Positions 53,619 through 55,773 of a DNA stretch of 64,000 nt are shown one piece after another. Each line of letters opens with the position of its first letter. Within the stretch, counting starts at the first letter, position 1. Made by a program: the position numbers and the translations under genes. Source of the DNA: Sandarakinorhabdus limnophila DSM 17366 (GTDB taxonomy: Bacteria; Pseudomonadota; Alphaproteobacteria; Sphingomonadales; Sphingomonadaceae); contig NZ_ATVO01000005.1 in assembly GCF_000420765.1 (NCBI RefSeq), positions 186,001 to 250,000 on the forward strand. The letters run 5' to 3'. Under the pieces are notes generated by a model. It was given only the letters and a program-made list of their open reading frames with translations, ran no database searches and was not told where the DNA came from.

Positions 53619-54575
53619 ATGACAATGCGCGTCGCGGTTCAGATGGACCCGATCGAAACAATCAACATCGGCGGCGATTCCAGTTTCGCGCTGATGCTGG
53701 AAGCCCAGGCGCGCGGCGCCACGTTGATCCATTATCTGGCTGATGATCTTTCCGCCGAAAACGGCCGGGTGCGGGCCAAGGCTCGGCCGCTAAAGGTGAT
53801 CAACCAAGCCGGCGCCCATTATGAATGGCTGGGCGATCCGCGCACGGTCGATCTGGCGGATGAGGCTGACGTGGTGCTGATGCGGCAGGATCCGCCATTC
53901 GACATGGGCTATATCACCGCCACCCACTTGCTGGAGCAGATCCAGGACCGGGTGCTGGTGGTCAATGATCCCGCCGAGGTGCGCAACGCGCCGGAAAAAT
54001 TGTTTGTGCTGCGCTTTCCCGATCTGATGCCGCCGACATTGGTCACGAAAAGCCTGGAAGAAGCCATGGACTTCCGCGCCCGCCACGGCGCCATCGTGGT
54101 GAAGCCGCTCTATGGCAATGCCGGCACCGCGGTGTTCCTGATCGACAGACAAGACGGTAATCTGCCGGCGCTGGTTGAACTGTTCAGCAGCGTGTGGCGC
54201 GAGCCATTCATGGTGCAGGCGTTCCTTCCTTCCGTGGCGGAGGGCGACAAGCGCATCGTGCTGGTGGATGGTGAACCGGCCGGCGCCATCAACCGACTGC
54301 CGAAAAAGGGCGAAATCCGTTCCAACCTCGCCGCCGGTGGCAGCGCCCAGCCGACCGAACTGACGGCGCGCGAGCAGGAAATCTGCGCGCGGCTCGGCCC
54401 TGAACTGAAAAAGCGCGGGCTGATCTTTGTCGGCATCGACGTGATCGGCGGCTTCCTCACCGAGATCAACGTCACCTCCCCCACCGGCATCCGCGCCATC
54501 GACCGGTTCAACGGCACCGACACGCCAGCGCGCATCTGGGACGCGATCAAGGCCAGGCTCGACGCGCGCGGTTGA
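53619..54575 (+). CDS. gshB: Glutathione synthetase
   Basis: 318 residues, ATP-grasp. The prokaryotic-type sequence is clear: QMDPIETINIGGDSSFALMLEAQARGA at the start, MRQDPPFDMGYITATHLLE, NDPAEVRNAPEKLFVLRFPDLMPPTLVT, IVVKPLYGNAGTAVF (the ATP-grasp loop), and FVGIDVIGGFLTEINVTSPTGIRAIDRF. It joins gamma-glutamylcysteine and glycine. It is coupled to the upstream genes and followed by arsR and gloA-gloB, all of which concern thiol detoxification. Its stop codon overlaps the arsR -35 box. Confidence 0.96.
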   Translation: MTMRVAVQMDPIETINIGGDSSFALMLEAQARGATLIHYLADDLSAENGRVRAKARPLKVINQAGAHYEWLGDPRTVDLADEADVVLMRQDPPFDMGYITATHLLEQIQDRVLVVNDPAEVRNAPEKLFVLRFPDLMPPTLVTKSLEEAMDFRARHGAIVVKPLYGNAGTAVFLIDRQDGNLPALVELFSSVWREPFMVQAFLPSVAEGDKRIVLVDGEPAGAINRLPKKGEIRSNLAAGGSAQPTELTAREQEICARLGPELKKRGLIFVGIDVIGGFLTEINVTSPTGIRAIDRFNGTDTPARIWDAIKARLDARG

Positions 54576-54613
54576 CATTTCGATAGTTGTCGAATAATTC
54601 GATGATTGTCGAA
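54572..54613 (+). promoter_or_regulatory. arsR-arsI promoter with two tandem operators
   Basis: TTGACA (54572-54577), overlapping the gshB stop, is a perfect -35. Two inverted repeats of the form TTCGAT-N4-GTCGAA follow at 54579-54594 and 54598-54613, with starts 19 bp apart. The candidate -10 is AATAAT at 54593-54598 (15-bp spacer) or TAATTC at 54595-54600 (17-bp). One operator thus fills the spacer and the second lies at the start site, an arrangement that would block RNA polymerase. Confidence 0.8.
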
Positions 54614-54623
54614 AGGATTTGGG

Positions 54624-54947
54624 ATGGACTCATCGTCAGCCGTGCCGGCACTTGCCGCCCTTGCCCATGAACGGCGCCTGGCACTGTTCCGGGCTTTGGT
54701 GGTGGCCGGGCCTGATGGCCTGTCAGCCGGGGCCATCGCGCGGGCGCTGGATGTGCCGCCCTCCAGCCTTTCGCACCACCTGGGGCTGCTGGAACAGGCG
54801 GGGCTGACGACCGTCCGCCGCGCCGGCCGCAGCCTCATCTATGCGGCGGATTTCGCCGCGATGCGGGCACTCATCGGTTTCCTGACCGAAGATTGCTGCC
54901 AGGGCCTTGCCCCTGAAACCGCCTGCACAACCGGAGACTGCGTATGA
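54624..54947 (+). CDS. arsR: ArsR-family repressor, arsenic-type
   Basis: 107 residues. ArsR/SmtB winged helix: ALAHERRLALFRALVVAGPDGLSAGAIARALDVPPSSLSHHLGLLEQAGLTTVRRAGRSLIYA. The C-terminus has the vicinal cysteine pair and extra cysteines (EDCCQGLAPETACTTGDCV), like the As(III)-binding site of the type found in Acidithiobacillus ArsR (Cys95-Cys96-Cys102), rather than the alpha-3N type CxC. The RBS is AAGGA at 54613-54617. It overlaps arsI by 4 bp and shares the operator-bearing promoter. No other ars genes (arsB, arsC, arsM) are adjacent. Confidence 0.9.
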   Translation: MDSSSAVPALAALAHERRLALFRALVVAGPDGLSAGAIARALDVPPSSLSHHLGLLEQAGLTTVRRAGRSLIYAADFAAMRALIGFLTEDCCQGLAPETACTTGDCV

Positions 54948-55387
54948 AGCGTTTGCACGTGCACGTGGGCGTGACCGATCTCGCCCACTCCATCGCCTTC
55001 TACACCAACCTGTTCGGTTCCGAGCCAACACTGGTGCGCGATGATTATGCCAAGTGGATGCTGGACGATCCGCGCGTGAACTTTGCCATCAGCCACGGCC
55101 ACGCCGCGCCGGGGATCGAACATCTGGGCATCCAGGCCGAAACCACTGAAGAACTGGCCGAAGTCACCGCCCGGCTGAACAGCGCGTCTGCGCCGGTGCT
55201 GGCCGAAGGCGAAGCGACCTGCTGCTATGCAAGGTCTGAAAAAAGCTGGACCGCCGATCCGCAGGGCGTCGTGTGGGAAGCCTTCCACACCATGGCCGAA
55301 GCCCGCACCTATGGCAGCAGCCCGATGCTGGACACGCTGGCAGCGATGGCCCCAGCAACAGGGGCCAGCGGCGGCGGTTGCTGTTAA
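54944..55387 (+). CDS. arsI: ArsI-type C-As lyase (vicinal oxygen chelate dioxygenase)
   Basis: 147 residues, VOC fold. ArsI/CadI signature: LHVHVGVTDLAHSIAFYTNLFG, GIEHLGIQAETTEEL and the vicinal thiols C93-C94 in ATCCYARSEKSW, then DPQGVVWEAFHT (Glu112). The likely Fe(II) ligands are His5 or His7, His60 and Glu112. ArsI splits the carbon-arsenic bond of trivalent methylarsenite and aromatic arsenicals, giving As(III). The C-terminus ends in GGGCC with another Cys pair. Regulated by the upstream arsR and co-translated with it. Confidence 0.9.
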   Translation: MKRLHVHVGVTDLAHSIAFYTNLFGSEPTLVRDDYAKWMLDDPRVNFAISHGHAAPGIEHLGIQAETTEELAEVTARLNSASAPVLAEGEATCCYARSEKSWTADPQGVVWEAFHTMAEARTYGSSPMLDTLAAMAPATGASGGGCC

Positions 55388-55773
55388 TCCTTGGACTTCG
55401 CCGGCTTGCTGGGCGGGCCGGCGACGCGTTCCCAGCTGCCAAAGCCGCAGCCGCCGAAATTGACGCCGCCCAGGTTGAAATCGATCACCTGCACGATGTC
55501 GCCGCGGCATTGGCTGCCGATCGGGCTGCTGTGCACCAGCGCCCGGCGCGGTTGCAGGGTGGGGCATTCCATGGTGTTGCGCCACCAGCGGCCATCGCGC
55601 AGCCGGGCATACCATTTGCCATCAGGCGCGGCCTGCGCCTGCAGGATGCTGCGCGTTTGCAGGCAATCCCGGGTTTCGGCCTTGAAATCGGCGGCCTTGG
55701 TGGCCGGATCGTCGCCGGCCAGTGCCGGGGCTGCCGCGACCAGCGCGGCGAGGAGGAGCGCGTTTCTGATCAT
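55384..55773 (-). CDS. Secreted protein of unknown function (Cys-rich, DUF6491-like?)
   Basis: 129 residues with a Sec signal (MIRNALLLAALVAAAPALAGD). The mature part has DCLQTRSILQAQAAPDGKWYARLRDGRWWRNTMECPTL, RRALVHSSPIGSQCRGDIVQVIDF, and GGVNFGGCGFGSWERV. Four cysteines probably form two disulphides. It resembles DUF6491-type sphingomonad proteins, but I am unsure. Its stop overlaps arsI's stop. An alternative start at 55806 adds MDTASHRHQGR. Confidence 0.6.
   Translation of the reverse strand: MIRNALLLAALVAAAPALAGDDPATKAADFKAETRDCLQTRSILQAQAAPDGKWYARLRDGRWWRNTMECPTLQPRRALVHSSPIGSQCRGDIVQVIDFNLGGVNFGGCGFGSWERVAGPPSKPAKSKD

Follow-up and report, generated by a model that had tools for sequence, protein, structure and literature searches.

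What can an arsR-arsI pair contribute to the defence against arsenic when it stands without any of its usual partner genes? The question is raised by a locus in the window, i.e. the whole stretch of 64,000 nucleotides that was analysed, where arsR and arsI are the sole genes between gshB and a convergent gene (Table 1). As a sequence-only reading of this DNA had stated, arsM, arsP and arsC are all missing from the positions adjoining the locus, and we found no acr3, arsB, arsP, MFS or MIP gene within the operon itself. The best explanation, which we regard as quite probable, is that the locus represents a reduced, clade-specific ars operon for organoarsenical defence, derived from an operon of sphingomonads. 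In the titles and abstracts of the literature, which was covered in part, an arsR-arsI unit standing alone is not described for these bacteria.

Table 1. Features of the arsR-arsI locus and its immediate flanks, in positions of the window
Feature	Position	Strand	Basis or remark
gshB, glutathione synthase, insertion site of arsRI (context)	53619..54575	+	family match
TTGACA, -35 element	54572..54577	+	overlaps the gshB stop (54573-54575); sequence, conserved place in six orthologous loci
predicted ArsR operator 1 (op1), TTCGATAGTTGTCGAA	54579..54594	.	fills the -35/-10 interval; kept in 6/6 arsR-bearing orthologous loci
probable -10 region, AATAATTC	54593..54600	+	gap between both operators; read from sequence, TAT-type in relatives
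predicted ArsR operator 2 (op2), TTCGATGATTGTCGAA	54598..54613	.	over the -10 edge and the expected start site
arsR, 107 aa ArsR/SmtB repressor, Cys91-Cys92, Cys101 and Cys106	54624..54947	+	family match, alignment, dN/dS
arsI, 147 aa ArsI/CadI C-As lyase family	54944..55387	+	family match, alignment, dN/dS
conserved convergent gene, no family assigned (context)	55384..55773	-	stop overlaps the arsI stop

The arsI gene, whose start codon overlaps the stop codon of arsR in the sequence ATGA (54944-54947), encodes a protein that scores above the cut-off of the ArsI/CadI equivalog family (NF041414: 123.8 bits, cut-off 116) and contains two pairs of adjacent cysteines, Cys93-Cys94 and Cys146-Cys147. 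In the alignment with the structures of Thermomonospora curvata ArsI (5c4p, 5d4f), residues H5, H60, E112, C93, C94, K100 and Y35 fall on Gln8, His65, Glu117, Cys98, Cys99, Lys105 and Tyr38, respectively, which in that enzyme serve as ligand, substrate-binding or catalytic residues (PMC12607644). The positions of the metal ligands, the vicinal cysteines, the lysine and the tyrosine are aligned with those of the Bacillus sp. MD1 enzyme as well, whereas Gln103 of TcArsI is replaced by Ser98 and the C-terminal Cys pair falls beyond the part aligned with TcArsI. Demethylation of MAs(III) is the activity predicted from these similarities. The comparison of arsI with its orthologs yielded dN/dS values of 0.08-0.24.

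Upstream of arsR, whose start at 54624 is preceded by AGGA, the -35 element lies over the end of gshB exactly as had been proposed, and the two TTCGAT-N4-GTCGAA repeats reported there proved to be perfect 16-bp dyads, 19 bp apart from start to start, which are the only exact matches to this pattern in the whole window. A scan with the sigma-70 consensus returned no promoter satisfying the rule of the scan: the -35 element alone is a match to the consensus, and the -10 region was not picked up. Both operators occupy identical positions relative to arsR (-46 and -27) in all six arsR-bearing orthologous Sandarakinorhabdus loci, each of which also has TTGACA or TTGACG immediately 5' of the first box. 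Because of this conservation, op1, op2, their spacing and the -35 element are very probably functional. The pair is not a product of chance: the core pattern TTCGA-N6-TCGAA occurs at only five sites in the 2.61-Mb genome, two of which are op1 and op2, and the pattern read backwards occurs at none. A wider ArsR regulon was considered and rejected, since the three remaining core sites lie within long ORFs and have mostly G+C-rich spacers, which makes them likely chance occurrences.

The same box was detected in 72 of 76 arsR-arsI promoters of related bacteria (named genomes; a promoter was counted as positive with at least one box with at most two mismatches), compared with an average of 0.055 in shuffled regions. 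Boxes often occur in pairs, most of them in a different arrangement: 33 promoters exhibit a spacing of 47-49 bp, and nine exhibit 19 bp, six of the latter belonging to the gshB-site unit of Sandarakinorhabdus. In one relative (locus L139), three ArsR boxes follow each other in 19-bp steps upstream of arsR. TTCGA-N6-TCGAA is therefore the predicted general ArsR operator of these bacteria; boxes 19 bp apart represent a minority architecture, which is found outside Sandarakinorhabdus too.

The ArsR protein was identified by the HTH_metalloreg profile (59.1 bits, cut-off 55), and its nearest match is the ArsR of 6j05 (E-value 3.8e-18), with Cys91-92 aligned to the Cys95-96 pair of the latter, in agreement with the CC-type metal site that had been read from the sequence. 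Cys101 is present in all ArsR orthologs and Cys106 in all except one; the dN/dS values for arsR range from 0.16 to 0.27. A C-terminal Cys pair and the 5-N6-5 geometry of the operator are common to this protein, the Acidithiobacillus ferrooxidans-type ArsR (6j05) and the ArsR of Paracoccus denitrificans, however with several differences: the half-site is TTCGA and not ATCAA (published operator: ATCAA-N6-TTGAT), Cys101 is placed nine residues past the pair while Cys102 of AfArsR is placed six residues past its own pair, and the two operators are separate, 19 bp apart, whereas those of the A. ferrooxidans-type and Paracoccus repressors overlap. Conservation of the predicted operators supports the binding of ArsR to its own promoter.

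As to its ligand, the repressor may sense MAs(III) or As(III). The two-Cys site of the Shewanella SpArsR type is selective for trivalent organoarsenicals. Cys91-92 match the As(III)-sensing type represented by Cys95-96 of the 6j05 protein, and the Paracoccus ArsR of matching Cys type is released by arsenite as well as by diamide (PMC9137774). Hence the main signal for the repressor might be As(III), antimonite or the oxidation of thiols, in which case the unit would belong to a general arsenic or redox response and would not be specific for organoarsenicals. We take this alternative seriously, and nonetheless give it rather less than an even chance, as ArsI is the sole effector encoded in the unit and induction by As(III) alone would gain the cell little.

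According to the preferred explanation, organoarsenical defence by a reduced operon, one ArsR dimer per dyad would block RNA polymerase, with op1 occupied between the -35 and -10 elements and op2 over the -10 edge and the start. By analogy with the repressors of A. ferrooxidans and Paracoccus, a trivalent arsenical bound to the C-terminal cysteines would release ArsR, and ArsI, if it acts like the characterised members of its family, would serve as an Fe(II)-dependent dioxygenase that cleaves methylarsenite, with formaldehyde and As(III) as the products. As(III), the less toxic species, would then have to leave the cell without Acr3, ArsB, ArsP or ArsK, most plausibly through a MIP channel whose gene lies outside the operon, or be bound by glutathione. 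The protein families, the active-site residues and the conservation of the operators lend good support to the prediction, made already in the sequence-only reading, of an organoarsenical unit with a self-regulated promoter.

That reading had also assigned the export of As(III) to other loci, a suggestion that was borne out in part. A search of the whole genome (99.99% complete) revealed no match to Acr3, ArsB, ArsP or ArsK, so that none of the three genes proposed for such a search (arsB, acr3, arsP) was found and no dedicated pump of these types is encoded, while one candidate MIP channel is encoded on another contig (C9:41325-42008). This channel is ~60% identical to the MIPs of ~35 related loci, in which the MIP gene is located downstream of arsR-arsI or arsR-arsI-arsC. 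It is a reasonable exit for As(III), because MIPs in ars operons were noted never to have been found together with another transporter (PMC4435449); its role in arsenic transport is a guess, however, since its surroundings revealed no ars gene and genus members devoid of arsRI possess the channel gene too. Among the eight genomes that carry the unit, Acr3 is encoded in only one (G015, where acr3 forms an operon of its own together with arsC and arsH) and ArsB in none. As to other arsenic genes in the genome analysed, the candidates for ArsM were dismissed as generic methyltransferases (59 bits, cut-off 263), and one candidate for ArsC (C6:89478) turned out to be a YffB/Spx-like protein. An ArsC-like reductase at C6:238072 (97.3 bits, cut-off 106) overlaps an acetyltransferase similar to ArsN1b, of the arsinothricin-resistance type (G000:C6:238030-238886; L172:5031-5887), both with scores below their cut-offs; matches to the ArsC family were obtained in all 10 genus genomes searched. 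We tentatively consider a stricter version of the defence, in which an MAs(III)-responsive ArsR drives ArsI only, demethylation alone protects the cell, and As(III) escapes passively via the MIP channel or as a glutathione complex, and find it somewhat doubtful.

The closest known relatives of the unit are operons of other sphingomonads. The arsR-arsI-arsC-acr3 operons, e.g. that of plasmid pLA3 of Novosphingobium pentaromativorans US6-1, exhibit the same order of arsR and arsI, homologous proteins and boxes of the TTCGA type, but the Sandarakinorhabdus unit has neither arsC nor acr3, and the latter is missing from the entire genome. The arsR-arsI-(arsC)-MIP operons of Sphingomonas, Sphingopyxis and their relatives likewise have arsR, arsI and the ArsR boxes in common with it, the differences being that the MIP gene resides inside the operon and that the boxes are mostly 47-49 bp apart rather than 19 bp. 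The earlier statement that such operons usually contain arsM, arsP or arsC has to be made more specific: the usual partners in close relatives are arsC plus either acr3 or a MIP channel. Among 78 related loci with enough flanking sequence, 11 contain a bare arsR-arsI or arsI, as judged by the partners covered in the survey (arsC, acr3, arsH, arsN2, one type of MFS and MIP genes only); seven of them are the gshB-site unit, and of the remainder one, L129, is located close to the end of a contig. Bare units are thus uncommon, without being unique.

Within the genus (24 genomes, the named members being Sandarakinorhabdus, e.g. NM-18, AAP62 and TH057), arsI was found at the 3' end of gshB in eight genomes, that of AAP62 (locus L074) among them. 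Six others possess a different arsR-arsI copy elsewhere, adjoined by arsC in five cases; in the sixth (G012) there is no arsC within the short locus. The arsI genes of the gshB locus are monophyletic (support 0.98), and we suppose about one gain of the unit at this site; it would have descended, by a single entry in this genus, from the arsR-arsI-arsC-(acr3 or MIP) operon that is common among sphingomonads. The site is cleanly devoid of arsRI in G002 and G020, and the absence from G002 is a loss, because a three-gene tree groups this genome beside the one analysed here (G000) and G011. In G009 arsR has been lost, and arsI, equipped with its own ribosome site, follows gshB by 22 bp (L041:8320-8342), with which it is probably co-transcribed. 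In G008 (Sandarakinorhabdus cyanobacteriorum TH057), arsI (L039:5908-6342) is interrupted by an in-frame stop at codon 107, before the Glu ligand, whereas its relatives have intact copies.

These three cases suggest weak or patchy selection on the unit, and together with the absence of Acr3 from seven of the eight carrier genomes they could indicate a decaying remnant, i.e. that the ancestral arsC and efflux genes were lost and arsRI, now of little function, is on its way out. We consider this unlikely: low dN/dS values (0.08-0.27 for both genes) and the conservation of the operators over dS of ~0.3-0.7 argue for long-term purifying selection on the two genes as a unit, and in the three genomes checked the interval that follows arsI contains no traces of arsC, acr3 or MIP genes.

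With respect to the flanks, gshB and gloB score above the cut-offs of their families, the gloA-like VOC protein scores below that of glyoxalase I, and ggt has a strong match to PF01019 but remains below the cut-off of TIGR00066. The overlap of the arsI stop with that of the convergent gene leaves little room for a terminator of arsI, and the search for one gave no convincing candidate, as the stem present is part of the convergent gene and lacks a T-run. In G011 an insert of ~270 bp with long terminal inverted repeats (L035:7658-7928), which looks like a small non-coding mobile element, separates the two genes. The early reading was correct about the position of the unit among gshB, gloA, gloB and ggt, but in G002, G020, G004 and G022 the convergent gene and gloB-gloA follow gshB immediately, with no arsRI in between, so that the context is positional and no evidence of a functional link to thiol genes. 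For the same reason a role of arsI in glutathione metabolism or in chemistry of the glyoxalase type, which its location beside gshB, gloB and gloA and its arrangement behind gshB in G009 could imply, is highly improbable, all the more since ArsI scores above the equivalog cut-off and all other arsR-arsI units in the survey, with the exception of three or four that are bare, are accompanied by arsC, acr3 or further arsenic genes.

The arsR-arsI unit is a real, conserved and reduced variant of a well-known operon, with ordinary chemistry and a modest departure from the known organization. Its carriers maintain arsI under its own ArsR without Acr3 (seven of eight genomes) or ArsB (all eight), which allows a direct test of whether cleavage of the C-As bond protects the cell without a dedicated pump, and the natural deletion in G002 and the gshB-arsI arrangement without arsR in G009 provide ready-made comparisons.
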